Source: Bacteroidales bacterium (GTDB lineage: Bacteria > Bacteroidota > Bacteroidia > Bacteroidales > VadinHA17). From it: 64,000 nt of DNA. The notes under the pieces are model-generated. The model was not told where the DNA came from, did not search any database, and was given only the letters and a program-made list of their open reading frames with translations. Position 1 is the stretch's first letter. Each line of letters starts with the position of its first letter. Shown in pieces: positions 16,522 to 51,923 of the stretch. A program made the translations under genes and the position numbers. Where the stretch lies: positions 1 through 64,000 of the forward strand of contig PLLO01000008.1 of the NCBI GenBank assembly GCA_003142255.1. The letters are read 5' to 3'.

Positions 16522-17232
16522 ATGAGGAATCTTGGTTTAATTTTTATTCTATCACTGGTAATATTCTTATCACCAGCTCTATATGGATCAAATGATTATC
16601 GCCCGGTCGCCCGGAGATACCAGGTGACACAGGATACAATTGATAAGCAACTCCTGTTCAATGGCAGGATATGGAGAAACCTTTTTTACAGGGTAAGAGG
16701 CGACCAGTTCCTGTTTTCCGATTCCTTCCTTCCGGCAACAATAGTTATAAACGGGAAGTCATTCCCGGGCAGCAGCATAAAGTACGACATCTGCAACGAT
16801 GAACTCCTTACAAAAGCAGGACGGAATATAATCATTCAGTTGAACAAGCAGATTGTTGAATCTTTCACTTTTGTATATAACAATAAATCATGGCGTTTCC
16901 TAAAGCTTGACAAAGACAGCCTTAATGACCTGAATGGCTATGTCAACCTGCTTTACCAGGGAAATATTTCCCTCTTTGTCAAATACCGGAAAGTCATTCT
17001 TCTTCTGGCAGTAGATAATAAATATGATGAATTTGATCTGACACAGAAAATTTACGTGATGAAAGACGGCAAAGCCTATCCTGTCAGTAACCAGAATGAT
17101 GTAATTGCGCTTTACAGCAGCTATAAACAGCAAATCAGAAATTTTATCAGGACAAATAAACTTCAAATATCACGAAAGAGTCCGGAAAGCTTTGTGCCTC
17201 TCATTGAATATTGTGATAAACTTGGACATTAG
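16522..17232 (+). CDS. Exported protein of unknown function, cassette copy 1, gene A
   Basis: A 236-residue protein from the ATG at 16522; a TTG four codons upstream is less likely. It has a signal peptide (about 1-19). I do not recognise the family by name. Conserved with its paralogue at 23305 are FNGxxW, the DQFLFSDSFLPATI-type segment, KYDIxxDEL, IQLNKQIVESFTF, a Gly-Tyr-x-NxLYxG segment, and the ending NFIRTNKLQIS followed by ESFVPLIEYxD. The pattern suggests a compact mostly beta periplasmic protein. It stops four bases before the receptor start, so the two are probably translated together and may work together. Confidence 0.65.
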   Translation: MRNLGLIFILSLVIFLSPALYGSNDYRPVARRYQVTQDTIDKQLLFNGRIWRNLFYRVRGDQFLFSDSFLPATIVINGKSFPGSSIKYDICNDELLTKAGRNIIIQLNKQIVESFTFVYNNKSWRFLKLDKDSLNDLNGYVNLLYQGNISLFVKYRKVILLLAVDNKYDEFDLTQKIYVMKDGKAYPVSNQNDVIALYSSYKQQIRNFIRTNKLQISRKSPESFVPLIEYCDKLGH

Positions 17233-17236
17233 TAAA

Positions 17237-19972
17237 ATGAGAGCTAAGCTTAAAATATTATTCATTTTTCTTGCGCTCTTTTATGCAAGCGCAGCTGAAG
17301 CCCAGCAGAATATTCAAATAGGGTGGGATTATTCCGGTATGAGTTTCACGGCTTTTGCGGCAAAGGCAGAAAGCCAGGACAGCCTCAGGTTCTTTTACAT
17401 GGACGAATGGGTGAGCGATATCAGACTCGGGGAATTCAAAGGTCCTGTTCTGTTATCTGACTTACTTGATGTTCTGTTCCGCAACAAATCTCTTTTTTAT
17501 TATATTGATGACTCCGGCAACGTAATAATAACAATGAATTTCGCAATTAAAATTACCGGCTCCGAAGCTTCACCGGGACTTAATTTCATACCTTCATCAA
17601 ATTACAGTGACCAGGATAACCAGAAGACCTCTGCCTCTGCATACATCAATATCGGAAATCCGGCTGACAGGAACAAGCCCGGCAATGCGATTTTAACGGG
17701 TTACATCACAAGCTCAGATACGAAGGAACCGGTAGCCGGGGTTACAGTTTTTAACCAGAGACTCTCATCAGGAACCATTTCCAACCAGTATGGCTATTAT
17801 TCACTATCCATGCCAAGAGGTTCCCATCAGCTTCAATTCACCTTTGTCGGGATGAAGGAGAAAATGGTAAATATTAACCTGAATGGTCCGGGTGAAATGA
17901 ATATTGACATGAACAGTACTCTCATTCCGCTTAAGGAGACAGTCGTTTCGGCCGACAGGAATTTGGTGCTGAAAAGGTACGAGGTGGGAGCAGAGAAGAT
18001 CAATATTACTTCATTCCGTCTTCTGCCCACATCCATGGGCGAATCAGACATCATTAAGAGCGTACTGCTGCTTCCCGGCGTTCAGACAGTCGGCGAAGGA
18101 TCAGCAGGATTCAACGTCAGGGGAGGCTCTGCAGATCAGAACCTCATACTGATGGATGGCTCCCCTCTTTATAATACATCCCATTTCTTTGGTTTCTTTT
18201 CTGCAGTAAATTCCGATATAATAAAGGATGTAACACTTTACAAAGGCGGTATTCCTTCCCGCTTCGGTGGAAGGATTTCATCAATACTTGATATAAGCAC
18301 ACGGGAGGGAAACCTGAAGCAATTCAAGGGGAACGCAGGTATCAGCCCTATAACCACGCACTTTGTTGTAGAAGGGCCTATAAAGAAGGACACCAGCTCA
18401 TTCATCATCACGGCCAGGACCACCTATTCGAACTGGATATTCAAGCTTATTGATGACCCGGATCTCAAAAAAAGCAGAGCCTTCTTCTATGATATCAATG
18501 CCAAGTACACGTACGACATCAACAGGAATAACAAGCTCGATTTCTCAGGCTACCTGAGCCATGATTCCTTCAGATTCAGTTCCGATACAGTATATTCCTA
18601 CGATAATAGCATATTAATCGCAAGATGGCGTCATTTCTTCAGCAGCAGGTTTTTATCCCTTGTAACTCTGAATAACAGCAATTACAGGTATGATGTATCC
18701 GGTGAAAGCGGCACCACAGAAGCATTTATACTGTCACACAGAATAAACAGCACGGGCCTGAAAGCCGATTTCAATTATTTCCTTGGACGAAATGAAATTA
18801 ATTTTGGCACTGACCTCACATGGTATGGAGTGATTCCCGGAAGCTATAAGCCTGCCAGTGATTCATCAATCGTCAAGTCTGAAACACTGGCGAAGGAGAG
18901 AGCCCTGGAAGCTGCTCTTTATATCGACGATAAGTTTGTTCTGAATGAATATGTCTCACTGAATGCCGGCATTCGATTCTCGTCTTTTTTTGCATTCGGC
19001 CCTGAGACACTTTTGCTTTATGATCCGGAATTTACAAAGAGCAGGTCGTCGGTTACAGACTCTGTTTCATACAGCGCAGGTCACATTTCAAAATTATATG
19101 GCGGCCCGGAGTTTAGATTTTCAATGAATTTCAAACTGTCAAACAGCAGCTCACTTAAAATAAATTATAACCGTACCAGGCAATACCTTCATCTTCTTTC
19201 GAACTCCGCATCCATAGCTCCGACAGATACCTGGAAGCTGTGCGATTATTATCTTAAACCGCAGACCGGAGATCAGTACGCCCTTGGATTTTACCAGATG
19301 CTCCATAGCAGAAGCGTTGAAGCCTCGGCAGAAATATATTACAAGTCAATACATAACATGGTTGATTATAAAGGTGGAACATCTCTTGTTATGAACGACA
19401 ACATTGAACAGAGCCTTGTGGACGTTGAGGGAAAAGCATATGGGCTTGAACTGATGATTAAAAAACCGGAGGGGAGGGTGCGCTGGAGCCTTGGCTATAC
19501 TTTTTCCAGGACATTCCTCAGAAGCACCGGAAAATTCAATGATGAGATCATAAACAAGGGTAAATGGTTCCCTGCCAACTTTGACAGGCCCAACGATCTT
19601 GTGGTGACTTTCAATTATCTCTTATCGCGCCGCTTCAGCTTCTCGACAAACTATACCTGGAGTACCGGCAGACCAATAACCTATCCTGTATCTTCATATT
19701 ACACGAATGATATATATATTATCTATTATTCGGAAAGGAATAAATACCGCATCCCGGATTATTCGAGGCTCGATATGTCATTCAGGTTTAGCGGAAGCCT
19801 GAGATCGCACAAGCTCGCCAATCCAAACTGGACATTTTCAGTATTTAACCTCCTGGGAAGGCAAAATGTATATTCGGAGTATTTCAATAATATAAATAAT
19901 AAGGTTGTGGGATATAAACTGTCGGTATTCGGCAAGGCAATACCCTCTGTAACACTTAGTTTTGACTTTTAA
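17237..19972 (+). CDS. STN-domain TonB-dependent outer-membrane receptor, cassette copy 1, gene B
   Basis: From the ATG at 17237 the protein has 911 residues; an upstream in-frame ATG at 17105 lies inside the previous gene and would bury the signal peptide. Order: signal peptide 1-22, STN (secretin/TonB short) domain about 25-102, carboxypeptidase-regulatory-like beta-sandwich about 150-235 (ITSSDTKEPVAGVTVF), plug about 265-370 (GFNVRGGSADQNLILMDG, LYKGGIPSRFGGRISS), then a 22-strand-type barrel to a terminal Phe. It imports a ligand using TonB energy. STN domains usually signal to a FecR anti-sigma factor, but none is encoded nearby. The substrate is unknown. Confidence 0.9.
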   Translation: MRAKLKILFIFLALFYASAAEAQQNIQIGWDYSGMSFTAFAAKAESQDSLRFFYMDEWVSDIRLGEFKGPVLLSDLLDVLFRNKSLFYYIDDSGNVIITMNFAIKITGSEASPGLNFIPSSNYSDQDNQKTSASAYINIGNPADRNKPGNAILTGYITSSDTKEPVAGVTVFNQRLSSGTISNQYGYYSLSMPRGSHQLQFTFVGMKEKMVNINLNGPGEMNIDMNSTLIPLKETVVSADRNLVLKRYEVGAEKINITSFRLLPTSMGESDIIKSVLLLPGVQTVGEGSAGFNVRGGSADQNLILMDGSPLYNTSHFFGFFSAVNSDIIKDVTLYKGGIPSRFGGRISSILDISTREGNLKQFKGNAGISPITTHFVVEGPIKKDTSSFIITARTTYSNWIFKLIDDPDLKKSRAFFYDINAKYTYDINRNNKLDFSGYLSHDSFRFSSDTVYSYDNSILIARWRHFFSSRFLSLVTLNNSNYRYDVSGESGTTEAFILSHRINSTGLKADFNYFLGRNEINFGTDLTWYGVIPGSYKPASDSSIVKSETLAKERALEAALYIDDKFVLNEYVSLNAGIRFSSFFAFGPETLLLYDPEFTKSRSSVTDSVSYSAGHISKLYGGPEFRFSMNFKLSNSSSLKINYNRTRQYLHLLSNSASIAPTDTWKLCDYYLKPQTGDQYALGFYQMLHSRSVEASAEIYYKSIHNMVDYKGGTSLVMNDNIEQSLVDVEGKAYGLELMIKKPEGRVRWSLGYTFSRTFLRSTGKFNDEIINKGKWFPANFDRPNDLVVTFNYLLSRRFSFSTNYTWSTGRPITYPVSSYYTNDIYIIYYSERNKYRIPDYSRLDMSFRFSGSLRSHKLANPNWTFSVFNLLGRQNVYSEYFNNINNKVVGYKLSVFGKAIPSVTLSFDF

Positions 19973-19977
19973 TATCT

Positions 19978-21105
19978 ATGAGACCGGCAAGGTATATTCT
20001 GTTTTTTGCCATGATGCTCTTCTCTGGAAGCTGTATCACGGAGTTCATTCCTGAGACGAATGAAAATGCTGATATGCTTGTCGTTGAGGGACTAATAACC
20101 AACAAGGCCGGTAATAATACAGTCAAGCTTTCAAAAGCGCTTTCACTTTCCAGCAAAACAACCGGAACTCCTTACACCAGATGTTCAGTAATTATTACTG
20201 ATGACCTTGGCAATATGACACCACTTTATGAGAAGAGCAACGGTTTATATGTTACTGATTCAGCTTTTGCAGGAGTGGTGGGTAGAGAATATAAGCTCAC
20301 TATCAGAACGAATAATAGCGGCGCCAGCAATTATACCTACGAATCGGTTCCGGTGAAGATGGTTCCTGTTCCTCCTGTCGATACCATTTATTATGAAAAA
20401 CAGCAGTATAATCCTGGATCAGATGCCTTCATCAGGGAAGGCTGCCAGGTCTGGTTCGACAGTCACGATCCGGATAATAAATGCCATTTCTACAGGTGGG
20501 ATTATAGCGAGACCTGGATGTTCCAGCTTCCGTATTATGTCCCAAACAACATCTGCTGGATCTCCGCAAACTCAAATGTCATTAATATTAAGAATGCTTC
20601 AATACTTACTGAGAACCGGATAACCGGTTACCCGCTGATCTTTATATCTCCGGAGAGTGACAGGCTCAGCATTAAGTACAGCCTGCTCCTGAACCAGTAT
20701 TCCATTAGTGAAGATGAATTTGAATACTGGGAGAAGCTAAAAACGATTACAGATGAGGTTGGATCGCTTTATGATGTTACACCATCATTCATCCCCGGAA
20801 ATGTCACTTGCATTGAAGACCCTACTCAGGATGTGTTAGGTTACTTCAGCGTTTCAGCTGTGAGCTCGAAAAGGATGTATATCTCAGGCAGGTTCAGAGG
20901 GCTGGCGTATCTTTATTCACAATGTCCCTCGGATACAGTAAACGACCTTAATGCTGTTGCGGACCTTAACTGGAAAAGATGGGTCATTGAGTCAGACGAG
21001 CTTGTTGTGCCGCCTATATACATCCTTACCAGGATTAAAGGATGTGCTGATTGTACGGTCAGGGGAACAAAAGATAAACCCTTATGGTGGGATGACAGTA
21101 AATAA
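19978..21105 (+). CDS. DUF4249 family lipoprotein, cassette copy 1, gene C
   Basis: A 375-residue lipoprotein (FSGSC, Cys19) that starts five bases after the receptor stop. Features of the DUF4249 family are the early LVVEGLITNKAGNNTVKLS, a VVGREYKLTI segment, the PPVDTIYYE motif, and an RWDYSETWMF-type aromatic strand near 180. Four Cys in the C-terminal half (with ADCTV near 360) may form disulfides. DUF4249 proteins very often sit next to TonB receptors in Bacteroidota and are presumed surface-exposed substrate-binding partners, comparable in position to SusD, though this role is not proven. Confidence 0.88.
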   Translation: MRPARYILFFAMMLFSGSCITEFIPETNENADMLVVEGLITNKAGNNTVKLSKALSLSSKTTGTPYTRCSVIITDDLGNMTPLYEKSNGLYVTDSAFAGVVGREYKLTIRTNNSGASNYTYESVPVKMVPVPPVDTIYYEKQQYNPGSDAFIREGCQVWFDSHDPDNKCHFYRWDYSETWMFQLPYYVPNNICWISANSNVINIKNASILTENRITGYPLIFISPESDRLSIKYSLLLNQYSISEDEFEYWEKLKTITDEVGSLYDVTPSFIPGNVTCIEDPTQDVLGYFSVSAVSSKRMYISGRFRGLAYLYSQCPSDTVNDLNAVADLNWKRWVIESDELVVPPIYILTRIKGCADCTVRGTKDKPLWWDDSK

Positions 21106-21115
21106 TGATTGAATA

Positions 21116-23272
21116 ATGATGACAAGGTACACAGGATCAATATTATTCATTTTCCTTTCACTCATGCCTTTACTGGCAGATGGGCAGGGCAAGGCTGCTG
21201 TCAATGAGGAGATCGCCGGGAAATTCATTAAGTATTGCAAAAGCGTACCCAGGGAGGAAGTTTACGTGCATACCGACAGGGATGAATACATTGCAGGCGA
21301 ACCAGTCTGGTTCAATGCATATCTTTTTAACAGGCTTAGTCTCGGTCTCTATGAAGAAAGCAGTGTTATTTACGTGGAACTTCTTAACTCTCTCAACCTG
21401 CCAGTCATACAGAAGAAGATAAGAATTGAAAAAGGTTCCGGTGCGGGAATCATTTCACTGCCTGATACGCTAAGCACGGGTAAATATCTTCTCAGGGCAT
21501 ACACAAACTGGATGAAGAATTTTCTGCCGGACAATTGCTTCATGAAAGAGATTAGCGTATATAATTCCATCAGTTCCCGCAGAATTATTGGTATGGCAGG
21601 CAGCGGTGCAGTTGCCGGCGTAAATGAGACGGCAGCAAATTCCCAGGCCTCCGAAAAAGGGTTCAGCGTAAATATCAATTCCTCAAGCCGTGATACTGTT
21701 AATATTGCGATCAGTGCTAATGAGAGCTTCAGGCTCGGCAACGGAAGCACATGCTATCTTTTTATTCAAACTCACGGGGTGATCAACTTCAATGAACCTG
21801 TAAGAGTTTATGGTGCGTCCACCATGATTCCTGTTCCGAAGAAGTCACTGATGCCGGGGATTAACCAGGTGACTCTGTTTAATTCAGCCGGTGAACCCAT
21901 CTTTGAAAGATATTTATATACACCTTCAACAGATAATGAGTCCTTATCGATAAACGCACCGGGCTCTGTACATAAAAGGAGTAAAGTACTGGTTGAGATT
22001 GATCCGGGTGCTGTTCAGAAATCAGATCTTAGCATCTCTGTTTCAGCGTCAAACAATGACAGCAATGGAGGAATTGACGATTACCTGGTTTTCGGTACGG
22101 AGTTCGGTACACTTCCTGAAGTTATGAGGGGAAGGAAACTTGCTTCTCTTCCCTTTGAAACAATAAATGATTTTCTGGCCACCGCAAAAAGCAACTGGCT
22201 TGACTGGAAGATCATCCTGGCCGGCCAGGTCCCGGGCCTTAAATACAGGATGGAAAATGAGTATCATAATTTGTCAGGATTTCTTATGGACAAGAATAAT
22301 ATGGCTCCCGATACCGGGCATTATGTATTCCTATCAAGACCTGGCAAAGAAGCTTATTTTCAGTATGCAAAAACCGGCATCGATGGTAAATTCAGCTTTG
22401 AGGTCCCCGAGTGGCTCTCAGACAAGGATATAGTGATACAACCTGCTGATCCGGGAAGGAATGATAATATAAGAATTGAATCCTCATTCCCTGGTCTCAG
22501 TTTTCCAGTGACTCCTGAAACAAAGTCACCCTCTGTAAATTCATCTCCATTATCAGATAGGTTGAGTGTGAACTACCAGGTAGGGAAAATATACAATACC
22601 TCATCAATTGGAGAAATATTAAAACAGCAGGGAGTGGCTTCTGAACCCGGAAGCTTTTATGGCAAACCCGATAATACGCTTCTGATGGATAATTACATTA
22701 AGCTGCCTATAATGCAGGAAGTCTTCTTTGAGCTTATCCCCGGTGTATATCTTAAAAATAAGAAATCGGAATGGGAAATGACAATTGCCGATCCTGTCGA
22801 CTTCAGCATTTACCAGGCTCCCCCAATGCTTTTAATTGACGGGGTAGTGGTAAAAGATGCATCGTTGATAGCAAACCTAGATCCTGAACTGATTGAAAGA
22901 ATTGAAACCGTGCGGGATAAATATCTTGTTGGAGATTACCTGATATATGGCCTCGTAAATGTCATTACCAGATCTGGAAACTTCAGTTGCATAAGCCTTC
23001 CTGATTATGCTGTCCGCCTTCAATGGAGCGTGGCTGATCAGGTTTATTCATTTGCTTCACCTGAGTACTTTTCCGCAGATAAGAAGAACAATCACGTACC
23101 CGACTTCAGAAATACTCTTTACTGGAATCCTTCCCTCAAACCAGGTAAAGACGGCAAATATCTGGTTGAATTCTGGAGTTCGGATTTTGCTTCAGATTAT
23201 TTAATCAACATCCAGGGAGTTGGAAATGACGGCAGGAGCATCTCCTTCAAAAAATCAATAAAAGTGGAGTAG
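21116..23272 (+). CDS. MG2-like plus plug-like exported protein, cassette copy 1, gene D
   Basis: A 718-residue exported protein (signal about 1-24). Residues about 47-150 resemble an alpha-2-macroglobulin MG2 domain (EVYVHTDRDEYIAGEPVWFN, then LLRAYTNWMKN). A beta-sandwich region lies at about 270-450. Residues about 575-640 look like a TonB receptor plug without a barrel: PPMLLIDGVVVKDASLIANL, then LIERIETVRDKY, then GLVNVITRSG. The end has a conserved NTLYWNPSLKPGKDGKY-type motif. It probably sits in the periplasm or on the outer membrane beside the receptor and could regulate, cap or extend it. This reading of the domains is by eye. Confidence 0.75.
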   Translation: MMTRYTGSILFIFLSLMPLLADGQGKAAVNEEIAGKFIKYCKSVPREEVYVHTDRDEYIAGEPVWFNAYLFNRLSLGLYEESSVIYVELLNSLNLPVIQKKIRIEKGSGAGIISLPDTLSTGKYLLRAYTNWMKNFLPDNCFMKEISVYNSISSRRIIGMAGSGAVAGVNETAANSQASEKGFSVNINSSSRDTVNIAISANESFRLGNGSTCYLFIQTHGVINFNEPVRVYGASTMIPVPKKSLMPGINQVTLFNSAGEPIFERYLYTPSTDNESLSINAPGSVHKRSKVLVEIDPGAVQKSDLSISVSASNNDSNGGIDDYLVFGTEFGTLPEVMRGRKLASLPFETINDFLATAKSNWLDWKIILAGQVPGLKYRMENEYHNLSGFLMDKNNMAPDTGHYVFLSRPGKEAYFQYAKTGIDGKFSFEVPEWLSDKDIVIQPADPGRNDNIRIESSFPGLSFPVTPETKSPSVNSSPLSDRLSVNYQVGKIYNTSSIGEILKQQGVASEPGSFYGKPDNTLLMDNYIKLPIMQEVFFELIPGVYLKNKKSEWEMTIADPVDFSIYQAPPMLLIDGVVVKDASLIANLDPELIERIETVRDKYLVGDYLIYGLVNVITRSGNFSCISLPDYAVRLQWSVADQVYSFASPEYFSADKKNNHVPDFRNTLYWNPSLKPGKDGKYLVEFWSSDFASDYLINIQGVGNDGRSISFKKSIKVE

Positions 23273-23304
23273 CAAGCCGCTTCAATAGCTGGAGGCTATT
23301 AGTT

Positions 23305-24009
23305 ATGAAAGGAATCATTGTTCTGTTTGCTTCTTTGCTCACCGTGTCAGCATTGTCTGCTCCATGCACCACAGGTTCATCAGTACTATCTTCTTTAAGT
23401 GTACAGGATACACTTAAAGAGAGACAGATCCTTTACAACGGTATCCTCTGGACTAACAAGTACCATAAATTTGATGGGAACCAATACCTTTTCTCTGACA
23501 TTTTCTTGCCGGGTTCATTATCATTCAACGACCATATATTCAGAAACCTGGAGCTCAGGTACGACATTTTATCTGACGAGATCATGACACCCAAGAACGT
23601 TGATGTGATAGTTCAGCTGAACAAGGAAATGGTCGACAGCTTCACGCTGGTATTTGAGAATAAAGAGTACCGTTTTCGAAACTTCAGTGGTGATTCGCTG
23701 CTGGGTTCAAGCGGTTATTTCAATGTACTGTACGAAGGTAAATCAGCCCTCTATGCCAAATATGAAAAGAGCATAGCAACTGTAATCAAGGACAATAGCA
23801 ATGGCTATTTCAACCAAACTATGGATATGATTCTGGTTTTGGATGGCAAAGACTATAAAATAAACAGACTGAAAGATATAATGAACCTGGTCCCCGGAGA
23901 GAATGGGCAGATAAGGAACTTTATCAGGGAGAAGCGGCTGAAGGTATCGATTAAACACCCCGATAGCTTCGTCCCTGTGATCAGGTATTACGACTCTCTG
24001 AAATATTAA
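23305..24009 (+). CDS. Exported protein of unknown function, cassette copy 2, gene A
   Basis: This 234-residue paralogue of the gene at 16522 keeps all the shared blocks (YNGILW, NQYLFSDIFLPG, RYDILSDEIM, VQLNKEMVDSFTLVFENKEYRF, NVLYEGKSALYAKYEK, NFIREKRLKVS, DSFVPVIRYYDSL). It has a signal peptide (about 1-18). It differs most in the 35 residues after the signal. Its stop is nine bases before the ATG of the receptor. Retention of this gene in both copies argues that it is an essential partner of the receptor and not a passenger. Confidence 0.65.
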   Translation: MKGIIVLFASLLTVSALSAPCTTGSSVLSSLSVQDTLKERQILYNGILWTNKYHKFDGNQYLFSDIFLPGSLSFNDHIFRNLELRYDILSDEIMTPKNVDVIVQLNKEMVDSFTLVFENKEYRFRNFSGDSLLGSSGYFNVLYEGKSALYAKYEKSIATVIKDNSNGYFNQTMDMILVLDGKDYKINRLKDIMNLVPGENGQIRNFIREKRLKVSIKHPDSFVPVIRYYDSLKY

Positions 24010-24018
24010 TTCCTATTG

Positions 24019-26751
24019 ATGCGGAGCAAGTTTTGTATCATGGTTATAACCCTGTGCCTCTGTTGCCGGCTGGCAGCTCAGGAGAAATATACTGTTACAT
24101 GGGAATTTAAGGCTCAGTCGTTCAGGGAATTTGTTACAAAAGCTGAAAGCTTACTCCCTGTTAAGTTCTATTATAAGGAGGATTGGATAGCTGATCTTAA
24201 ACTATCAGATTGCCCTGGCTGTACTACTGTGCCATCTGTTCTGACCAGCTTGTTCAATGGCACTTCGCTTCATTTTTTTATTGACAATTCGGGACATATA
24301 GTTATAACAAGGGATTTTGCTGTCAAACGGCCCGATGTAGTTAATGAAGATGTTAAATTGTACATACCAACGGCATATTTTGCTGAATCGGGCGGTGAAC
24401 AGCAGAAGACTGAAAACATGTTTGTTGAGATCGGGAATAAGGTCGACAGGAACAGGCCTGGCAATGTCTCCGTTTCGGGATATGTCACTAACAGTGATAC
24501 ACATGAAAAGATAGGAGGAGCGACCGTATCTGTTCCAAAGCTGTCGAAGGGAACAATTTCAAATGAATATGGTTTCTACTCGATTACTCTTCCGCGTGGA
24601 ACATATGAGGTCCAGTTTTCGTTTGTCGGGATGAAGGAAAAAAAGATCAACCTGAATCTCTTCGGCACTGGCGAGATGAATGTTGATATGAAGGGTATGC
24701 TTATACCTCTGAAAGAGACTTTTATATCAGCCGAAAAGAATACCACTCTCCAGCGCTTTGAGGCGGGTGCCGAAAAGATAAATCTTTCTTCATTCAGGCT
24801 GACTCCCACCTCCCTTGGAGAACCCGACCTGATGAAGAACATTCTCCTTATATCCGGCGTTCAGTCGGCAGGTGAAGGTTCTGCAGGGTTTAACGTCAGG
24901 GGAGGGTCGGCCGATCAGAACCTTATTCTGATTGACGGTGCCCCGCTGTACAACACTTCCCATTTCTTCGGGTTCTTCTCGGCAGTCAATTCCGACATAA
25001 TCAGGGATGTGACGCTCTACAAGGGAGGAATTCCTGCCAGGTACGGGGGAAGGATCTCTTCAGTGCTCGACATAGTTACCATCGAAGGCAATCCAAATAA
25101 GTTTTCAGGCAGCGCGGGAATAAGCCCTATAACAACGCGTCTGATGGTTGAGGGTCCAATTATAAAGGATACACTCTCTTATGTTCTGGCAGCAAGAACT
25201 ACCTATTCAAACTGGATATTCGGACTGATAAAGAATCCTGATATACGTGAGAGCCGGGCTTTGTTTTATGATATGAACGGTTCGTTGACATGGAATCCTG
25301 ACAAGAAAAATAAATTCGAGCTATCTGCATATCATTCCTACGACAACAGCAGGTTTAACAGCGATGCAGTTTATGGTTACATGAACGCCACTGCACTTCT
25401 TAAATGGCAGCACTTCTTCACCAGCAGGTTCATATCAAACTTCTCCATTAATAACAGCTTTTATAAGTACAATGTCACAGACAGAGAGGTTGAGACCGAA
25501 GAATATTTCCGGTCTCACAGGCTCAACAGTACTGAATTACTGGCTGATTTTAACCTGTTCAGGGGTAACAATAACTTCAATTTCGGGCTCGATATGACTA
25601 TGTATTCAGTTCTTCCCGGAAGCTACAGACCTGCCAGCCCAACTTCTTCAGTTGTCTCTCATTCAATAGAAAATGAGAGGGCCCTCGAGACCGCTCTTTA
25701 CCTGGAGGATAAGATAACCCTCACTGATTATCTTTCTGTAAATGCCGGGATGAGAGTCTCTTCATTTTTATCATTCGGCCCCCAGACAGTTTACATGTAT
25801 GATCCTGAAATACCCAGAAGCGGTTCATCAATATATGATACTCTTTATTATCGTCGTGGTGCAATATCCGGCAAATATGCCGGCCTTGAACCAAGATTAT
25901 CACTGAATTTCAGGTTATCAGGGACCAGTTCCCTGAAGATTAATTATAACAGGACCCGCCAGTATATACATCTCCTTACAAACTCAATGTCGATATCGCC
26001 AACCGATACATGGAAACTGTCAGGTTATTACCTGAAGCCGCAGATCGGCGACCAGTTCGCAGCCGGTTTATATAAGTTCATGTTTGACAAGAAGCTCGAG
26101 GCATCAGCAGAAATATATTATAAAACGATCAGGAACATGATCGATTATAAGGGAGGTACGACTCTTACATTCATAGAAAACATTGAGCAGGAAACAATCG
26201 ATGTGAGAGGAAAATCCTATGGACTGGAGCTTGGGCTGAAAGAGACTGAAGGAAAGGTCCGCTACAGCCTCAGCTATACGTTTGCCAGGACATTCATCAG
26301 AAGCACTGGCAAGTCAGGCGGGGAGATGATAAATTCAGGCAACTGGTACCCTGCAAATTACGACAAGCCCAACGACCTTGTGGTTACATATAACTATCTT
26401 TTTTCACGCCGGCTGAGTTTTTCGGCTGCCTATACATACAGTACCGGTCGCCCAATAACATATCCAGTCGCAACTTACAGGATAAGGGATAACCTTGTTG
26501 TGCAATACTCTGAAAGGAACAAATACAGGATACCTGATTATTCAAGGCTGGACGTATCATGCAAAATAAGCGGCAACCTGAAATCGAAGAGAGCAGCACA
26601 CCCTGATCTCACTTTCTCGGTCTATAACCTCCTTGGAAGAGATAATGTTTATTCCGTGTATTTCAAGAGAGACCAGGAAATTATTAAGGGATATAAGCTT
26701 TCTATTTTCGGGAGACCGATTCCGACGGTGACCTTTAATTTTAACTTTTAA
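24019..26751 (+). CDS. STN-domain TonB-dependent outer-membrane receptor, cassette copy 2, gene B
   Basis: From the ATG at 24019 (a TTG lies one codon earlier) the protein has 910 residues and the same order of signal, STN, carboxypeptidase-regulatory-like, plug and barrel as the copy at 17237. The plug matches over long stretches (GFNVRGGSADQNLILIDG, LYNTSHFFGFFSAVNSDII), while the STN linker and barrel loops differ more. That is the pattern expected if the two receptors share partners but recognise different ligands. The STN domain has CPGC in place of a polar loop, so a disulfide is possible there. Confidence 0.9.
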   Translation: MRSKFCIMVITLCLCCRLAAQEKYTVTWEFKAQSFREFVTKAESLLPVKFYYKEDWIADLKLSDCPGCTTVPSVLTSLFNGTSLHFFIDNSGHIVITRDFAVKRPDVVNEDVKLYIPTAYFAESGGEQQKTENMFVEIGNKVDRNRPGNVSVSGYVTNSDTHEKIGGATVSVPKLSKGTISNEYGFYSITLPRGTYEVQFSFVGMKEKKINLNLFGTGEMNVDMKGMLIPLKETFISAEKNTTLQRFEAGAEKINLSSFRLTPTSLGEPDLMKNILLISGVQSAGEGSAGFNVRGGSADQNLILIDGAPLYNTSHFFGFFSAVNSDIIRDVTLYKGGIPARYGGRISSVLDIVTIEGNPNKFSGSAGISPITTRLMVEGPIIKDTLSYVLAARTTYSNWIFGLIKNPDIRESRALFYDMNGSLTWNPDKKNKFELSAYHSYDNSRFNSDAVYGYMNATALLKWQHFFTSRFISNFSINNSFYKYNVTDREVETEEYFRSHRLNSTELLADFNLFRGNNNFNFGLDMTMYSVLPGSYRPASPTSSVVSHSIENERALETALYLEDKITLTDYLSVNAGMRVSSFLSFGPQTVYMYDPEIPRSGSSIYDTLYYRRGAISGKYAGLEPRLSLNFRLSGTSSLKINYNRTRQYIHLLTNSMSISPTDTWKLSGYYLKPQIGDQFAAGLYKFMFDKKLEASAEIYYKTIRNMIDYKGGTTLTFIENIEQETIDVRGKSYGLELGLKETEGKVRYSLSYTFARTFIRSTGKSGGEMINSGNWYPANYDKPNDLVVTYNYLFSRRLSFSAAYTYSTGRPITYPVATYRIRDNLVVQYSERNKYRIPDYSRLDVSCKISGNLKSKRAAHPDLTFSVYNLLGRDNVYSVYFKRDQEIIKGYKLSIFGRPIPTVTFNFNF

Positions 26752-26756
26752 CGGCT

Positions 26757-27890
26757 ATGAATTATATGCGGCCTGCCATATTGTTTTTATTCATGCTGAT
26801 CCTTGCTGGTTGTGTCACAAGCTACACTCCTGAAAATATTGAGAGTGAGCAGGCTCTTGTAGTTGAAGGGCTCATTACCGACCGGCCGGGACCATATACT
26901 ATAAACTTATCGGTATCAATCCCCCTTTGGAGTGCCAATAAAGCAGTGAGAATGACTGGATGCACGGTCTGGATTACAGATGATGCAAACGGAAGTTATA
27001 CTCTGAAGGAAGGATCCAGGATCGGTTCATACCTTACGGATTCTGCAAACTTCAGGGGAGTTCCCGGAAGGACATATACTCTTCATATAATTACAAACAA
27101 AGGTATGGAAAACCTTAATTATGATTCGTACCCCATGAAGATGGTAGCTGCTCCTCCTGTCGACTCGGTTTATTATGAGAAGAAATTATTCAATCAGAAC
27201 GGCTACGGTATAGTGGAAGGGTGCCAGATATTTCTCAATACTCATGATCCGGCAGGGGAATGCAGGTTTTACAGGTGGGAGTACAATGAAACCTGGGAAT
27301 TCAGCCTTCCTCATAATTATACTGTTCTTAACAGGACATGCTGGATATCACAGAATTCAGAAGGAATACTGATAAAGAACTCTTCATCCCTTGAAAATGG
27401 GAAAATATCACGTTTCCCCATTCTGACAATTTCAAATCCTGTCGACAGGCTGAGCGTGAAATACAGCATACTGGTGAACCAGTTTTCCCTTAATGAGGAT
27501 GAGTTTTATTATTGGGAGAAAATAAAAAATATGACAGAGGCGACAGGCGGGTTTTATGATATCGTACCGGCTTCAATTCCCAGCAATGTTTATTGCCTCG
27601 ACGATGTTACCAAAAAGGTGCTTGGTTATTTCTGCGTCTCCTCCGTGACCTCAAAAAGGATTTTTATCAGGGACTCCTTCAGCGGGGAGAACATGATGTA
27701 CTATAATTGTCCCACTGGAATTTATACGGGGACCACAACCATACCGCGTCTTAATGACTCGCTCTGGGTTATCATTACTTACCCCGATTCTGTCCCTGTT
27801 CAAAGGATCGTGACAAGTAAATTCGAATGTGTATCATGCATCGGGCGAGGATCGGGTACTGAACCTTCTTTCTGGCACGACGATAAATAA
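26757..27890 (+). CDS. DUF4249 family lipoprotein, cassette copy 2, gene C
   Basis: A 377-residue lipoprotein (LILAGC, Cys19) starting five bases after its receptor. It matches copy 1 at ALVVEGLITDRPGPYTINLS, PPVDSVYYEKK, CRFYRWEYNETWEF and VDRLSVKYSILVNQFSLNEDEFYYWE. The C-terminal Cys pair is in CVSCIG. The pairing of one DUF4249 lipoprotein with each receptor fits the idea of a cognate receptor-lipoprotein pair. An ATG three codons downstream is an alternative start. Confidence 0.88.
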   Translation: MNYMRPAILFLFMLILAGCVTSYTPENIESEQALVVEGLITDRPGPYTINLSVSIPLWSANKAVRMTGCTVWITDDANGSYTLKEGSRIGSYLTDSANFRGVPGRTYTLHIITNKGMENLNYDSYPMKMVAAPPVDSVYYEKKLFNQNGYGIVEGCQIFLNTHDPAGECRFYRWEYNETWEFSLPHNYTVLNRTCWISQNSEGILIKNSSSLENGKISRFPILTISNPVDRLSVKYSILVNQFSLNEDEFYYWEKIKNMTEATGGFYDIVPASIPSNVYCLDDVTKKVLGYFCVSSVTSKRIFIRDSFSGENMMYYNCPTGIYTGTTTIPRLNDSLWVIITYPDSVPVQRIVTSKFECVSCIGRGSGTEPSFWHDDK

Positions 27891-27910
27891 AGAACCATCA
27901 CTTCAACTGG

Positions 27911-30076
27911 ATGAAAAAAAATAGCAAACCGGCTTTTCTTATTCTGTTCTTCCTTCTGATCTTTCAGAGTTCATTCGGGCAGGCAAGGATAAATGTGCCG
28001 GATTATATAAGCAGGAAATTCACCAGTTACTGCAAATCAGTTCCCTGGGAGGACGTGTATCTGCATACCGACAGGGATGAATATATTGCCGGTGAAGAAC
28101 TATGGTTTAATGTTTACGCGTTCGACAGGCAGAGCCTGGCAACTTCGCTTAAAAGCCGGCTGGTTTATGTTGAGGTAGTTTCGCCCGATAACAAACAAAT
28201 AATAAAAGCACGGTTTGAGATAAAAAAGGGCTATGGTCCGGGACAGATCCTTTTGCCGGATACGTTAAGCTCAGGATTATATACGATCAGGGCATATACC
28301 GGGTGGATGAAAAATTTCCTTCCCGGAAACTGCTTCACAAAGGATATCAGGATATATAATGCAATCAGCAGCAAACCCTTCAGGGGCATATCAGGGAAGT
28401 ACGGAATAATCAGGGATAGTGCGATTCTTCCCGGTTCAAAAGGGATATCAGTTAAGATAGATAACCATAACCCCGACAGCCTTGAGATCCGGATAAATGC
28501 TGATAAAGATTTCATAAATTCCGGAAATGAGAATGTATTTCTTTTCATAGAGACACGTGGTAATATCAACCTTGCCTGTCCCGAGAAGTTGAATGGAGAA
28601 AATACCAGAATAAAAGTCTCACGCTCTATTCTTATGACGGGGATAAATCATATTACTTTATTTGATCAGAGTATCAATCCGATCTGCGAAAGGTTCATCT
28701 ATTCTGCTGCAAGAGATGAAAAGCAGAAAATATCGGTTAAATCAAAGGATATTTATAAACCCAGGAGCAGAGTTACTCTTGAGATAGATAATGAGGGAGA
28801 ATTTAATGCACTAGCAGGAGGGAACCTTAGCATATCAGTATCTCCTCTGACTGTCGATTCTGCTTCACGGGATATAGGCGGGTACCTTGTGTTCGGATCA
28901 GAATTTGGCGAATTGCCATGGGATATCCTGAAAGACAAAAAAATAGATGAGCTTTCCTCAGATGCTATCGACAGCCTTCTTAACGACCTGAAAAGCAACT
29001 GGATAAGGTGGAGCTCGGTTTTTGCTTCAAATGAAGTTCAATTCAGAAATATACAGGAATCAGAAGATCATTACCTGTCCGGCAAGCTGATAAAAAATGA
29101 TCAGCAGCCTGCACCATTTGGAGAGCCTGTCCTGCTTTCCATTCCCGGCAAGGTGGCGCTCTTTCATTATGCCCTGACAGATTCTGATGGCAATTTCAGC
29201 TTTCCTTTACCTATTGATGAAGAGATGAGAGACATTGTGATTCAACCGGGCAACAGCGCTGGTAATTATAAAATAATTATGGAGACCTCTTTTTCAGACC
29301 TTATTCCGGAAAAAGGAGGTGATGATGTCAACACTAGTCACGCTCCTCCTTCATATATTTCGGAATGGAGCTCTAATTTTCAGGTTGCAAGGATATACGG
29401 GATAACATCAGAAGGAGCTTTTCAGAAACCTCTCTCTTCCCCGCTGCAGGTAAAAAGGTTCTACGGTAAACCTGGACTGGAGATCCGACTTGACGATTAT
29501 CTAAGCCTTCCGGTAATGGAGGAGGTGTTTTTTGAATTGTTGCCACGTGTCATTCTGAAGAACGACAAGTCCGGATATGAGTTGTATATGGTTGACCCTC
29601 TAAGGAACAGGCTCTATAAGGAACAGCCGGTTATGATGGTCAATGGCGTTATTTTTACTGACCCGGCTGTTATTGGCAAAATGGACCCTGCCCTGGTGGA
29701 GAAAATTGACGCTATCCGTGAAAAATATGTCGTTGGAGATTACCAGTTTCCGGGCATTGTGAACGTAATAACAAAATCGACCGATTATAAGAACATGACA
29801 ATCCCTGCCAATGCAGTAAGGATTCCTTATTCTGTTGCTCAGCCGGTGGCATCTTTTAATGCTCCTGATTATTCGACGGAAGTCCTTGGAAACAGCAGGG
29901 TTCCGGATTTCCGGAATACCCTTTACTGGAATCCCTCCGTCAAACCCGGAAATGACGGCAAATACCATGTTGAATTCTGGAGTTCCGATTTTGTTTCTGA
30001 CTACATGATTAAAATAGAAGGTATATCAACTGACGGAAAAACCGTATCCCTTAAAAAGACTATTTCAATCAGGTAA
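27911..30076 (+). CDS. MG2-like plus plug-like exported protein, cassette copy 2, gene D
   Basis: A 721-residue paralogue of the 21116 gene, with the same features: signal (about 1-23), MG2-like block (DVYLHTDRDEYIAGEELWFN near 46-66), middle beta region, plug-like block (PVMMVNGVIFTDPAVIGKM, then GIVNVITKST) and the NTLYWNPSVKPGNDGKY-type ending. Both copies keep the terminal motif and the plug-like helix almost unchanged, while the central 150-450 region varies. It begins 20 bases after gene C and ends the presumed operon. No clear terminator follows. Confidence 0.75.
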   Translation: MKKNSKPAFLILFFLLIFQSSFGQARINVPDYISRKFTSYCKSVPWEDVYLHTDRDEYIAGEELWFNVYAFDRQSLATSLKSRLVYVEVVSPDNKQIIKARFEIKKGYGPGQILLPDTLSSGLYTIRAYTGWMKNFLPGNCFTKDIRIYNAISSKPFRGISGKYGIIRDSAILPGSKGISVKIDNHNPDSLEIRINADKDFINSGNENVFLFIETRGNINLACPEKLNGENTRIKVSRSILMTGINHITLFDQSINPICERFIYSAARDEKQKISVKSKDIYKPRSRVTLEIDNEGEFNALAGGNLSISVSPLTVDSASRDIGGYLVFGSEFGELPWDILKDKKIDELSSDAIDSLLNDLKSNWIRWSSVFASNEVQFRNIQESEDHYLSGKLIKNDQQPAPFGEPVLLSIPGKVALFHYALTDSDGNFSFPLPIDEEMRDIVIQPGNSAGNYKIIMETSFSDLIPEKGGDDVNTSHAPPSYISEWSSNFQVARIYGITSEGAFQKPLSSPLQVKRFYGKPGLEIRLDDYLSLPVMEEVFFELLPRVILKNDKSGYELYMVDPLRNRLYKEQPVMMVNGVIFTDPAVIGKMDPALVEKIDAIREKYVVGDYQFPGIVNVITKSTDYKNMTIPANAVRIPYSVAQPVASFNAPDYSTEVLGNSRVPDFRNTLYWNPSVKPGNDGKYHVEFWSSDFVSDYMIKIEGISTDGKTVSLKKTISIR

Positions 30077-30114: not shown

Positions 30115-30150
30115 TAAATTTGATATGTTCATGGCGGTCAGCTATGAACA
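30115..30150 (+). promoter_or_regulatory. Candidate -7 box and short inverted repeat upstream of the GH3 gene
   Basis: TAAATTTG at 30115-30122 fits TAnnTTTG. Right after it, TGTTCAT (30126-30132) and ATGAACA (30144-30150) form a perfect 7-base inverted repeat with an 11-base spacer. No good -33 TTG is placed. The repeat could be an operator or a small hairpin in the leader. Confidence 0.3.
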
Positions 30151-30192: not shown

Positions 30193-32349
30193 ATGAAGAA
30201 GATTAATTTGCTTGTTGTACTGGTGTCTTTCCAGTTGATAACATACGGCCAGACTTATCCATTCCGCAATACCAGTCTTCCGGAAGATGCACGTATTAAA
30301 AATCTCATCTCCCTTATGACACCAGATGAGAAATTAAACTGCCTTTCCACAAGGTTTGCAATTCCCCGTCTGGGAATATCCGGAACTCATACCATTGAGG
30401 GACTGCATGGTCTTGCCTACAGCGGCCCTGCAAACTGGGGCGTCAGGGGACCCAAGGCTTCGCCAACGACTACATTTCCTCAGTCAATCGGCCTTGCGGC
30501 TACATGGGATCCCGATCTTTTGCAGCAGGTTGCTGATCAGGAGGCAACGGAGTGCCGCTACCTGGCACAGAATAAAAAATTCGGTACGGCAGGACTCATC
30601 GTGTTTGCTCCCAACGCCGACATGGGAAGGGATATCCGGTGGGGCAGGACAGAAGAGTGCTACGGAGAAGATCCTTTTCTGAACGGAACCCTCGTGACTG
30701 CCTATGTAAAGGGATTGCAGGGGAGTGATAAAACCTACTGGAAAACAGCTTCCCTTATGAAGCATTTCCTTGCAAACAGTAACGAAAATAACCGCGCATA
30801 CAACAGCTCTGATTTCGATGAACGCCTATTTCGGGAATACTATTCCTACGCTTTTTTCAAAGGTGTTACGGAAGGCGGGTCCCAGGCTTTCATGGCTGCC
30901 TACAATAAGTATAATGGAATTCCCTGTACTGTTAACCCGGTCCTTAGGAACGTCACCATGAACGATTGGGGTTTGAGAGGAATTATCTCAACTGATGGAG
31001 GAGCTTTCAAGCAACTGCTTACCACCCATGCATATTATCCCTCGTTGGCTGTTGCTGCGGCAGAGTGCCTGAAGGCGGGCATTACAATGTTCCTTGATGA
31101 TTACAGGGCGTCAGTGAAAGAGGCTCTTGACAAAGGACTGATAACTGAAAAGGATATTGACGATGCCATTTACGGGAACCTGAGGGTTATGCTGAAGCTT
31201 GGAATGCTTGACGACTCACCTGAGAATCCATATGCGGCAATCGGAATATCCGATACCATTCCGCCATGGACAAAACCGGAAGCAAAAGAGCTTGCAAGAA
31301 AAACAACGGCCGAATCGATAGTTTTGCTTAAGAATGAAAACAGACTTCTCCCTCTTCAGAAAGAAAAGATAAAATCGATTGCTGTAATTGGTCCATCCGC
31401 AAATATGGTTATTTCAGACTGGTACGCCGGCACGCCACCTTACAAGATCTCAATACTCAAAGGAATAAGGAACGCCCTTGGTGATAATGTGACGGTAAAA
31501 TTCGCTATGAGCAATAAAGCCGATTCGGCAATTATTGCTGCAAAACAGTGCGATGCTGCAATTGTCTGCATCGGCAACCACCCGTTAAGCTATGGTCTGG
31601 GCTGGGGAGTAAGCCATGTTCCGAGTGACGGCCGCGAAGATGTAGACCGGCAGGCAATCTCAATCGAGCAGGAAGACCTTGTGAAGCTGGTGATGACTGC
31701 CAATCCGAAGACTATTCTTGTAATGGTCTGCAGTTTTCCTTATTCAATCAACTGGTCTAAGGAGCATGTCCCGGCAATCCTCCAGGTTAGCCAGTCAAGC
31801 CAGGAGCTAGGCAACGGTATGGCTGATGTCATTTTTGGGAAGGTAAGCCCGGCTGGCAGGCTGGTGCAGACATGGATTTCTTCAATTGACCAGATACCAC
31901 CGATACTTGATTACAATATCAGGAACGGAAGGACCTATATGTATTTTAAAAATGTTCCGTTGTTCCCGTTCGGTTATGGACTGACATACACCGATTTCAA
32001 ATATTCAGGGTTAAAAACCGATAAGAATAGTATCACTAAGGATGAGGTGGTTAATGTATCGTTCACCTTGCAAAATACCGGTAATTTTGACAGTGATGAA
32101 GTGGCACAGCTGTATGCTTCGTTCCCCGATTCCAAGGTTGAAAGACCCGCAAAGGCACTTAAAGGATTCAAACGCATACCGGTTAAGAAAGGGGAGTCTG
32201 TAACTGTGACTATCCCGGTTAAAGCATCTGACCTCACATACTGGGATGCAGCTGGAAAGTCATGGGTGCTTGAACAAGGCAGGATAAACCTGTCTGTTGG
32301 ATCATCATCATCCGATATAAGGCTGAAGGGAGTGATAACGGCAAGGTAG
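30193..32349 (+). CDS. GH3 family glycoside hydrolase
   Basis: A 718-residue exported enzyme (signal about 1-20) with the GH3 layout: a TIM-like domain about 25-340, an alpha/beta sandwich domain about 360-570, and a C-terminal FnIII-like domain about 610-715. The nucleophile Asp268 is in GIISTDGG. Substrate-binding KHF is at 190-192, preceded by NADMGRDIRWGRTEECYGEDP. It resembles GH3 beta-glucosidases and beta-xylosidases, and the specificity cannot be settled by eye. It lies 116 bases after the receptor cassette on the same strand, so it may or may not serve it. Confidence 0.92.
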   Translation: MKKINLLVVLVSFQLITYGQTYPFRNTSLPEDARIKNLISLMTPDEKLNCLSTRFAIPRLGISGTHTIEGLHGLAYSGPANWGVRGPKASPTTTFPQSIGLAATWDPDLLQQVADQEATECRYLAQNKKFGTAGLIVFAPNADMGRDIRWGRTEECYGEDPFLNGTLVTAYVKGLQGSDKTYWKTASLMKHFLANSNENNRAYNSSDFDERLFREYYSYAFFKGVTEGGSQAFMAAYNKYNGIPCTVNPVLRNVTMNDWGLRGIISTDGGAFKQLLTTHAYYPSLAVAAAECLKAGITMFLDDYRASVKEALDKGLITEKDIDDAIYGNLRVMLKLGMLDDSPENPYAAIGISDTIPPWTKPEAKELARKTTAESIVLLKNENRLLPLQKEKIKSIAVIGPSANMVISDWYAGTPPYKISILKGIRNALGDNVTVKFAMSNKADSAIIAAKQCDAAIVCIGNHPLSYGLGWGVSHVPSDGREDVDRQAISIEQEDLVKLVMTANPKTILVMVCSFPYSINWSKEHVPAILQVSQSSQELGNGMADVIFGKVSPAGRLVQTWISSIDQIPPILDYNIRNGRTYMYFKNVPLFPFGYGLTYTDFKYSGLKTDKNSITKDEVVNVSFTLQNTGNFDSDEVAQLYASFPDSKVERPAKALKGFKRIPVKKGESVTVTIPVKASDLTYWDAAGKSWVLEQGRINLSVGSSSSDIRLKGVITAR

Positions 32350-33497: not shown

Positions 33498-36047
33498 CTA
33501 TTCAAATGAGAATTTATAATTGTCGCTCTTTTTTGGTTCTGTTTTAAATATAAGTGCTTCTGAAATATAAACATTCGTCCCGGCTGATTCGGATCTCTTT
33601 TCTCCGTTTACTACTATTTTTACGGAGTGCGTTCCCGGTTTCAGGCCGAAGGCATGCCAGATGCTGACATCCATATGCTGCTGGTTACTGAAATTATAAT
33701 AAGTATCAATAGTCCGGTGAAGAGCGCCATCCAGATAAATATCAGCTTTCCCTCCATCGGCCACCCAATTGCCGGTGATGGATATGCCTGATCCCTTAAA
33801 AGTTATCTGAATCTCATCGCCTTTTTTCCCCGAAACAATCCATTTTGCATTTTTGCCGGCAGGTACATCCTGGTTCTTCCATTTTCCCGTTAATTTAATA
33901 GCAGCATTGTCAAAGACAGAGATCCTGCTGTCGAAAACAAGATTGGGAAATGAAACCTCAAGATCAGGGGGAACCGGCTGCCGGATTTTAATTTTAATTT
34001 TCTTTCCGGAGACAATTCCACCGCTCTCATTTATAAATCCAAGAGCATAATTATAAGTGCTCTCCACAGCTTTATTGAATGAATAATTTGTATTGATAAA
34101 GATTGATTCGCTTATTGCTTCAATGCCTTTTCTCATGTTTTCCGGAAGATTACTGAACCCAATCAAAACACCCAGAACCGCAAGGGCATTGGACGGATTG
34201 CAGTCAGAGTCCTGTCCGCAGCGTGTTGTGATCTCCAGTGTTTTCAGCGGATCTCCATTGCCGTAGAGCAGTCCCATTACAATATATGCGCCATTCAGCT
34301 TGGCATCAATATTGAACGGATCGCCGGCACCACATATATCAACATCTCCCCATTTTGCCTCTAGGTCCTTCCAGGCCGATCTCCAGTCATCAGGATAATG
34401 TCGATGCAGTTTTATGACATCTCTGATTGTTCTGGAGTAGTCACTCTCCTCCGGAATCGATTTCAGCGCATTTTCGATTATGAGATTAATATCCTTTTCA
34501 AAAAAAGCCTGTGAATAAAGTGCAGCAACAAATATTCCGCCATATACTCCGTCGCCATAATTCATTATATGCCCTATCCTGCCGGCAATTGCTGATGCTT
34601 TCACAGGCATTCCCGGGCACATGAAGCCGATATAGTCGGCCTCTATCTGGAAATCTATGTCGTCGGCGTGGAAGTTATACTCAGGGTTTCCGGATAATGG
34701 CGCGAATATGCTATCATAATAATTCTTGCGGGCCTGCATGTTGGCGTGCCAGAGCGGGTATCCGGCTTTGGCGAACATCTCCTGGAATTTCTTTGCCGGA
34801 GCATCAACTCCGAACCTGTCCATCGACATCAGGAAAGTAAGCTGAACATAGAGATCATCCTGCCAGAGGCTTCCTTTTATATCGGAAGGTTTCCACCTGA
34901 TGGAATCTTCGAAAGTTTTCTGCAATGCATGAAACTCGGTAGGGGCTCCATAGGTAACGCCGATCATCTTGCCAGCCCAGCCGCCGGCAATCTTGTCCCT
35001 TAGTACGCCGGCATCTATCTTAAGGAATTCATCAACCGTGGCTTCAGATGAATGAGGAATCGGGACATGCATCATACGTGCCTCGATAAAATCAGCAATC
35101 TCATTTGCCGGAACTTTCATTACCACGTAAGAGTGTTTCCCGGCCGGGTTATCCTCCCATGTGTTGCTGCCATCGGAACTTACTTTGATAGTACCATGAA
35201 CAGTATTGAAAAATTTCTCGGTTCCGTAAACAGAGATAAGAGCTGCTGTCTCGTCCCAACTCATCCTTCCGTATTTGTCCTCCTGCGAAAGCGGCAGGCT
35301 TATTCTGAAGACATCCCTCACTGGACTATTTTTAATACCGGCAGCAACGAGCTTAAGTCCGGTCTTGATTTCCTTGCCGGTCTCGAAGCCAGTAAAGGTT
35401 ATTTCACCCGGCCAGTTTTCAAATACATATTTCGATGAAGCTGAATCGATAAAAATATTGAACTCCCGGCCTTTGGGAAACCATCCAGCCATGGAAACAA
35501 GCTTCCCTACCTTCTTTTCGATGAGTTCCCTTCCTGTGAAGCCGCTGATTTCATCGGGCTGCGATTTAAGCAGATTGCAGAGATTGGTAAGAAACCCGAC
35601 AGTGACAATGGTGACACTTTTATCAGGCTGGGCATTCAGCACCTTCCTGTAAACAGTAACTGCATCGGGAGCTTCTGAAGTTGATTTTATCCTGTGCGGG
35701 TATTTTGCGATAATAGAATCGGGCCAGTGCTGTGCAGCGCCCATATCTGCTCCGGCCGTTTTAGGTGAACCAGTTGGAATATCCGGTCTGCCGAAATATG
35801 TATTGATGACATCAATTGAAGGAACAACCAGTTCGTTCTTGTTGGAAGCAACAGTTGCAAGTATCTCAGCTTTGCCGCTATCGGCCATCGCATGAAGGAA
35901 TGCGAGCGCCCCTACATCGTCATAATCGGGTCCCATGTCGGTATCGAATATGATCTTTACAGTTTGATTTAGCTGTTTTCCAGATTGGTTTATGCAACCT
36001 GAGAAAGGTAGCAAACTTATTGAAAAAATAATTAATAGTTGTCTCAT
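33498..36047 (-). CDS. Lipoprotein fusing nucleoside hydrolase, ADP-ribosylglycohydrolase-like and C-terminal beta-sandwich domains
   Basis: An 849-residue lipoprotein (LLPFSGC, Cys18). Residues about 30-330 are an inosine/uridine-type nucleoside hydrolase: IIFDTDMGPDYDDVGAL holds the calcium-binding Asp set. Residues about 345-680 resemble ADP-ribosylglycohydrolase: LRDKIAGGWAGKMIGVTYG, the metal-binding-type QDDLYVQLTFL, and the C-terminal CGQDSDCNPSNALAVLGVL. Residues about 700-849 form a beta-sandwich that may bind ligand. The nucleoside hydrolase half should release ribose from nucleosides; the second half could cleave ADP-ribose or a related glycoside. It lies between ribokinase and the GRP transporter, so released ribose would be taken up and phosphorylated. 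A role in nucleotide salvage is inferred. Confidence 0.85.
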   Translation of the reverse strand: MRQLLIIFSISLLPFSGCINQSGKQLNQTVKIIFDTDMGPDYDDVGALAFLHAMADSGKAEILATVASNKNELVVPSIDVINTYFGRPDIPTGSPKTAGADMGAAQHWPDSIIAKYPHRIKSTSEAPDAVTVYRKVLNAQPDKSVTIVTVGFLTNLCNLLKSQPDEISGFTGRELIEKKVGKLVSMAGWFPKGREFNIFIDSASSKYVFENWPGEITFTGFETGKEIKTGLKLVAAGIKNSPVRDVFRISLPLSQEDKYGRMSWDETAALISVYGTEKFFNTVHGTIKVSSDGSNTWEDNPAGKHSYVVMKVPANEIADFIEARMMHVPIPHSSEATVDEFLKIDAGVLRDKIAGGWAGKMIGVTYGAPTEFHALQKTFEDSIRWKPSDIKGSLWQDDLYVQLTFLMSMDRFGVDAPAKKFQEMFAKAGYPLWHANMQARKNYYDSIFAPLSGNPEYNFHADDIDFQIEADYIGFMCPGMPVKASAIAGRIGHIMNYGDGVYGGIFVAALYSQAFFEKDINLIIENALKSIPEESDYSRTIRDVIKLHRHYPDDWRSAWKDLEAKWGDVDICGAGDPFNIDAKLNGAYIVMGLLYGNGDPLKTLEITTRCGQDSDCNPSNALAVLGVLIGFSNLPENMRKGIEAISESIFINTNYSFNKAVESTYNYALGFINESGGIVSGKKIKIKIRQPVPPDLEVSFPNLVFDSRISVFDNAAIKLTGKWKNQDVPAGKNAKWIVSGKKGDEIQITFKGSGISITGNWVADGGKADIYLDGALHRTIDTYYNFSNQQHMDVSIWHAFGLKPGTHSVKIVVNGEKRSESAGTNVYISEALIFKTEPKKSDNYKFSFE

Positions 36048-51905: not shown

Positions 51906-51923
51906 CAAAAAAATTGCAGGACA

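Follow-up and report, generated by a model that had tools for sequence, protein, structure and literature searches.

TonB-receptor uptake complexes define how Bacteroidota feed, and one pairing of such a receptor with a DUF4249 protein, BT2172/BT2173, is described in a passage of PMC11003636, citing the preprint of Price et al., as a conserved operon in which disruption of either gene has similar consequences. As far as this passage goes, the pairing of receptor and DUF4249 has been proposed before (PMC11003636). The locus described here adds two further partners, a split of the DUF4249 proteins by length and a fusion of one of the new partners to the receptor, and neither these features nor the four-part unit as a whole were found described in the literature searched, which includes no preprints and few subscription journals; within the same coverage, nothing was found on an MG2 domain in Bacteroidetes or on a macroglobulin with a TonB-dependent plug in Flavobacterium. 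With proteins that resemble a gate in the membrane, a lid on its outside and two partners on its inside, the unit probably represents a form of nutrient-uptake machine that has so far gone undescribed.

The window, the whole stretch of 64,000 nucleotides that was analysed, contains at positions 16522-30076 on the plus strand eight intact open reading frames that form two tandem four-gene units, each arranged A-B-C-D. In the first unit, A1 (16522..17232), an exported protein of 236 aa, is followed by B1 (17237..19972, starting with the ATG at 17237), a TonB-dependent receptor of 911 aa composed of a weak STN-like region, a CarbopepD_reg_2 domain (NTE; 2e-15), a plug (8.4e-9) and the barrel, by C1 (19978..21105), a long DUF4249 protein of 375 aa (3.1e-42) with a lipobox-like Cys19 at its N-terminus, and by D1 (21116..23272), an exported MG2/plug-like protein of 718 aa. 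The second unit consists of A2 (23305..24009; exported, 234 aa), the TonB-dependent receptor B2 (24019..26751; 910 aa, CarbopepD_reg_2 6e-15, Plug 2.4e-10), for which the ATG at 24019 was taken as the start and the ORF tool gives the TTG at 24016, the long DUF4249 lipoprotein C2 (26757..27890; 377 aa, Pfam DUF4249 4.2e-41) and D2 (27911..30076; exported, MG2/plug-like, 721 aa). Gaps of 4-20 nt separate the genes within each unit and 32 nt separate the units. The tandem four-gene cassette that a sequence-only reading had placed from 16522 onwards, which is the start of A1, is thus present with its eight reading frames and two units, but its order has to be corrected, as the exported protein without a described family comes first and not third.

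The double unit is flanked by rmuC upstream and a GH3 glycosidase gene downstream (30193-32349). A terminator-like hairpin after D2 (30126..30150, plus strand) is a consensus match only, terminator-like sites across the region numbering 12 versus 12.8 expected from shuffles, and promoter consensus scans of the region are close to shuffle level. The motif TAnnTTTG, which we take to be the Bacteroidota -7 motif, is found at 16413 and 30115; these are two of its 16 plus-strand occurrences in the window and are uninformative. Elsewhere in the window, a minus-strand gene (33498-36047) joins nucleoside hydrolase and ADP-ribosylglycohydrolase domains, and a short tandem array with a 36-base unit (308-412) is located within open reading frames overlapping on both strands.

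The four genes recur together in many Bacteroidota. At the order level, a search of 247 genomes gave matches to A in 55, to D in 102 and to Pfam DUF4249 in 209 genomes, the D counts being lower bounds as scoring took in about four candidates per genome at most and the listing ran to 150 places. Eighty order-level stretches were read, with genes labelled by profiles built up from the proteins of the window; 67 of these stretches were chosen for A matches, and those chosen for D or C (L105-L117) stand outside the 67. B, C and D are near A in 44 of the 67 loci (43, and one A-B fusion with C and D following), A stands alone in 15, two of which (L042, L077) lie at most 700 bases from the contig end on the side expected for B, A is accompanied by B only in seven, six of them running into the contig end, and no A was found in the remaining one (L103). 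The genes run A-B-C-D in some lineages and B-C-D-A in others, and A-B is divergent from C-D in three loci (L054, L083 and L006); the latter, on contig 3 of this genome at about 49800-57800, is a third, diverged unit with a further DUF4249 gene facing it. A same-strand gene upstream of the block is at least 59 nt away in 43 of 44 cases, and a downstream one follows within 20 nt in four of 37, so that the boundary of the operon is blurred in some cases.

Named genomes were scanned with the 13-member B alignment, and the best 80 of at least 594 confirmed matches, a selection that favours close relatives of B, include, according to their record titles, Bacteroidales, Flavobacteriaceae, Hymenobacter, Cyclobacteriaceae, Chitinophagaceae, Mucilaginibacter and one MAG labelled Chlorobiota. 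Among these best 80 of at least 594, A is present in 76, C in 76 and D in 70 loci, and the set A, B, C and D is complete in 64 overall and in 54 of the 57 with room for all four, with median gaps within units of 1, 3 and 3 nt; C is missing in L130 and L152, and A in L174 and L193. Culturable species that carry a unit include Dyadobacter sp. CY312 (L138) and Cyclobacterium salsum (L150). The alignments drew on the named loci and took in, besides the two window copies, 75 of the 76 eligible A proteins, 65 of the 71 D proteins and 41 of the 93 C proteins. That the four genes constitute a fixed functional unit, as initially suggested from the window, is strongly supported by the same order and near-zero gaps across these genomes, and the rarity of co-occurrence that would have spoken against it is not seen in the genome search.

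The four-gene unit goes with a long form of DUF4249. The family (PF14054) is recognized in C1 and C2 with 145.4 and 141.7 bits versus a curated cut-off of 28.5, and Pfam gives no SusD-family match in either. In L196 (12771-18757), L143, L169 and L181, one receptor and one D enclose three to five diverged DUF4249 genes in tandem. Cys19 is conserved in 43 of 43 aligned long C proteins, as are Cys193, Cys356 and Cys359, and Cys316 in 41 of 43. The long and short forms were counted among the matches listed (the first 100 DUF4249, 150 D and 112 A matches, and 41 long plus the next 60 DUF4249 places). Among the first 100 listed order-level matches, none of the 56 DUF4249 proteins shorter than 360 aa versus 38 of the 44 longer ones have a listed D within 7 kb, and D is present in three of the six remaining long cases (L116, L044) once the locus is read. 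Among the matches listed at the phylum level (296 genomes), where a DUF4249 match counts as long if it extends to the end of the long profile, a listed A lies within 9 kb of 36 of the 41 long forms and five have none nearby, compared with 0 of 60 for the next DUF4249 matches, which fall short of that end. The split provides an immediate rule predicting which receptors have extra partners. C is multiplied to two to five copies in 16 of the 80 units, with a mutual identity of 39-91% in the 14 loci measured, as if one receptor were served by alternative or swappable lids.

For A1 and A2 no Pfam or NCBIfam family was found, and comparison of the AlphaFold2 model of A2 (pLDDT 88.9) with the PDB gave nothing at E <= 0.001 and no prominent family, which does not imply a new fold. 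Across Bacteroidota, A homologues sit before the receptor or after D. One family has, in six of its 15 genomes (L091 (G211:C41), L198-L203), a receptor that carries A at its N-terminal end in the layout A, linker, plug and barrel, with A replacing the regions of STN and CarbopepD; a single fused protein was scanned by Pfam, and it gives a match to Plug but none to STN or CarbopepD. As A is fused to the receptor N-terminus in place of periplasmic domains, it is put on the plug side of the receptor. Outside the unit, 82 of the 112 listed phylum-level A matches are not near any listed long DUF4249. A lone A-family gene is located outside any unit in this genome (L228, contig 13, about 118700-119300), which the family search reads in one piece with one in-frame stop versus a 224-aa frame in the ORF scan.

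Concerning the receptor, CarbopepD_reg_2 and Plug are found by Pfam in 13 of 13 aligned members, and the B profile matches structures of SusC homologues and RagA. The original label of an STN/TonB receptor holds with respect to CarbopepD_reg_2 and Plug, present in both B1 and B2, but not firmly with respect to STN, which is matched at E 0.049 in B2, not at all in B1 and at E <= 0.01 in one of the 13 family members (3.5e-4). B also contains a TonB-box-like stretch, by what we take to be its motif, and such a stretch is, like plug and NTE, presumably typical of importers.

The fourth protein, D, combines two kinds of domains. MG2 is scored below the curated Pfam cut-off of 32.8 bits in D1 and D2 (18.1 and 28.3 bits), and the AlphaFold2 model of D2 (pLDDT 88.6) displays alpha-2-macroglobulin/C3-like MG domains. 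A profile of the 67 aligned D proteins, which range from 534 to 835 aa, matches the SusC plug at profile positions 548-616, and the CxEQ thioester motif occurs in none of the 67. A simple pattern finds no lipobox in the D proteins of the window, and Pfam and NCBIfam show no T9SS sorting domain in its A or D proteins. Among the D-like loci picked away from units, 13 of 14 are without A, B and C. A 1181-aa MG2/plug-like protein is encoded elsewhere in this genome (L216, C19, about 41450-43770) with no such receptor nearby, and two or three D-like genes stand side by side in L217, L221 and L222.

Between the two units of the window, amino-acid identity is 38.5% for A1 and A2, 57.2% for B1 and B2, 47.3% for C1 and C2 and 43.9% for D1 and D2, and each of the four pairs shows homology that extends over the whole length or most of it (BLASTP, E at most 1.5e-54). 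The dS (NG86) is saturated and not estimable for the A, B and D pairs and amounts to 2.3 for the C pair; as synonymous sites are saturated, dN/dS is unusable as a selection test for the unit pairs. Because of the low identity and the saturated or nearly saturated synonymous sites, the window's two units are, judged by sequence, old copies of one machine. An assembly artefact or a recent duplication is ruled out by the same figures, and near-identical copies, which the sequence-only reading had named as evidence against itself, are not what is found. Tandem double units are present in four of the 80 named loci (L120, L153, L166, L172) and, with the same pattern, among 82 order-level loci in the window only.

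With respect to descent, B1 and B2 are not sisters in a 33-row IQ-TREE receptor tree and fall inside one clade of nine, where B1 groups with L122 (97/95) and B2 with L118-L120 (100/99). In small trees made with FastTree, L122 is the partner of A1, of C1 and of D1 (0.923, 0.954 and 0.952), B2 and D2 fall with L118-L120, A2 falls with L121 (0.80) and the placement of C2 is unresolved; in contrast to IQ-TREE, the FastTree receptor tree places the B of L122 beside the outgroups and not with B1. The trees fit, without proving, a block-wise descent of the units, best for unit 1, and the lateral acquisition of one unit is possible. Along the receptor, B1 and B2 are 78% identical in the plug, 59% in the barrel, 58% in the CarbopepD region, 34% in the STN-like region and 26% in the linker. 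The divergence of barrel versus plug had been taken as a sign of different ligands, a view that is rejected here as a gradient of this kind is seen in ten other receptor pairs as well (plug 72-93%, barrel 56-76%) and reflects ordinary constraint. The STN-like domain is at 34% identity lower in B1-B2 than in any of these ten pairs (37-63%), and this extra divergence may be worth attention.

Homology, gene order, wide co-occurrence and the N-terminal A-B fusion in one family are observed, and as their interpretation we lean towards each unit encoding one four-part TonB-dependent outer-membrane import complex. B would be the barrel with its plug in the outer membrane and C a lipoprotein on the cell surface that serves as the lid or binds the ligand, in analogy with the proposal for BT2172/BT2173. 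A, presumed to be periplasmic, would dock at the N-terminal, plug side of B, and D, exported and probably located in the periplasm, would be a scaffold built from macroglobulin-type domains and a plug-like domain that takes over cargo as it comes out of B or steadies the receptor in its open state. Import as the function, and every step after the barrel, we infer. More tentative, and to be held with some doubt, is the specific proposal that the macroglobulin-type D with its plug-like domain and without a thioester is the periplasmic cargo acceptor or gate partner of a lidded TonB receptor and that A couples at the plug, which would make the unit a new class of outer-membrane importer. It is speculation that the plug-like domain of D stands in place of the macroglobulin bait region, a placement which depends on what we take to be the macroglobulin domain order. 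If the four proteins form one complex, a class for which chiefly a barrel and a lid have been known gains two inner partners, one of them without a described family, and testable roles arise for three poorly understood families at once.

By its architecture, as far as sequence can tell, an uptake or a sensing role of the unit is plausible. Were it sensing, B would be the transducer, and its STN-like domain and A would relay the ligand signal across the outer membrane to a regulator elsewhere in the genome, in line with the STN-like region preceding the CarbopepD domain in B and with A taking the place of the STN-like region in the A-B fusion. We consider this unlikely, as STN is recognized at E <= 0.01 in a single one of the 13 members, as the fused A-B receptor manages without an STN-like domain, and as regulators do not accumulate beside the unit. 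Among 122 immediate flanking genes scanned (of 129), Sigma70_r2 is found in four and Sigma70_r1_2 and Sigma70_r3 in three each; of the 201 families seen there, the 25 most frequent, the last of which have two members, do not include FecR. No Pfam family occurs in more than four of the 122, and none of the directly adjoining genes is consistently an enzyme or an inner-membrane transporter, unlike in sugar-uptake loci, which is a point against the import complex. Nothing recurs in the neighbourhood that would hint at a substrate, to which the GH3 gene downstream in the window lends no support either.

The absence of recurring ligand-processing genes in these immediate flanks would suit export or surface assembly, in which D, exported and of 534-835 aa with its MG-type beta-sandwich domains, would be a macroglobulin-type surface structure placed with the help of B and C; against this, B has the plug, the NTE and presumably the TonB-box-like stretch of importers, and the window's D proteins are without a lipobox by simple pattern or a listed sorting domain, which makes this reading very improbable. 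Rather improbable is also that B and C are an ordinary TonB receptor and DUF4249 lid pair with A and D as loose accessories travelling by operon convenience. The published passage on a receptor with DUF4249 (PMC11003636) would agree with it, as would the relatives of A and D away from the unit and the presence, on contig 1 of this genome, of a B-C pair unaccompanied by A and D (L007; a 777-aa receptor and a 310-aa DUF4249 protein). On the other hand, A and D occur almost always with the long form of C and, among the matches listed, never near the short form, and six of 15 genomes in one family have A and B as a single fused protein.

With FecA-type signalling receptors, B may share a weak STN-like N-terminal domain, but no adjacent FecR/sigma pair recurs among the 122 immediate flanking genes, and the unit's immediate neighbours in the window are rmuC and GH3. 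D may share with alpha-2-macroglobulin and complement C3 an MG2 domain, scored below cut-off, and further MG-type domains; it differs by being far shorter, by the absence of CxEQ in all 67 proteins and by its plug-like domain. The pedal-bin importers SusCD and RagAB resemble the unit in a receptor with CarbopepD (NTE), plug and barrel and in an adjacent lipoprotein, whereas the unit has a DUF4249 lid and not SusD, two extra exported partners and no recurring enzyme set. The BT2172/BT2173 type shares the receptor adjoining a DUF4249 protein (PMC11003636), and the partners A and D, unmentioned for BT2172/BT2173 in that passage of PMC11003636, would set the unit apart.
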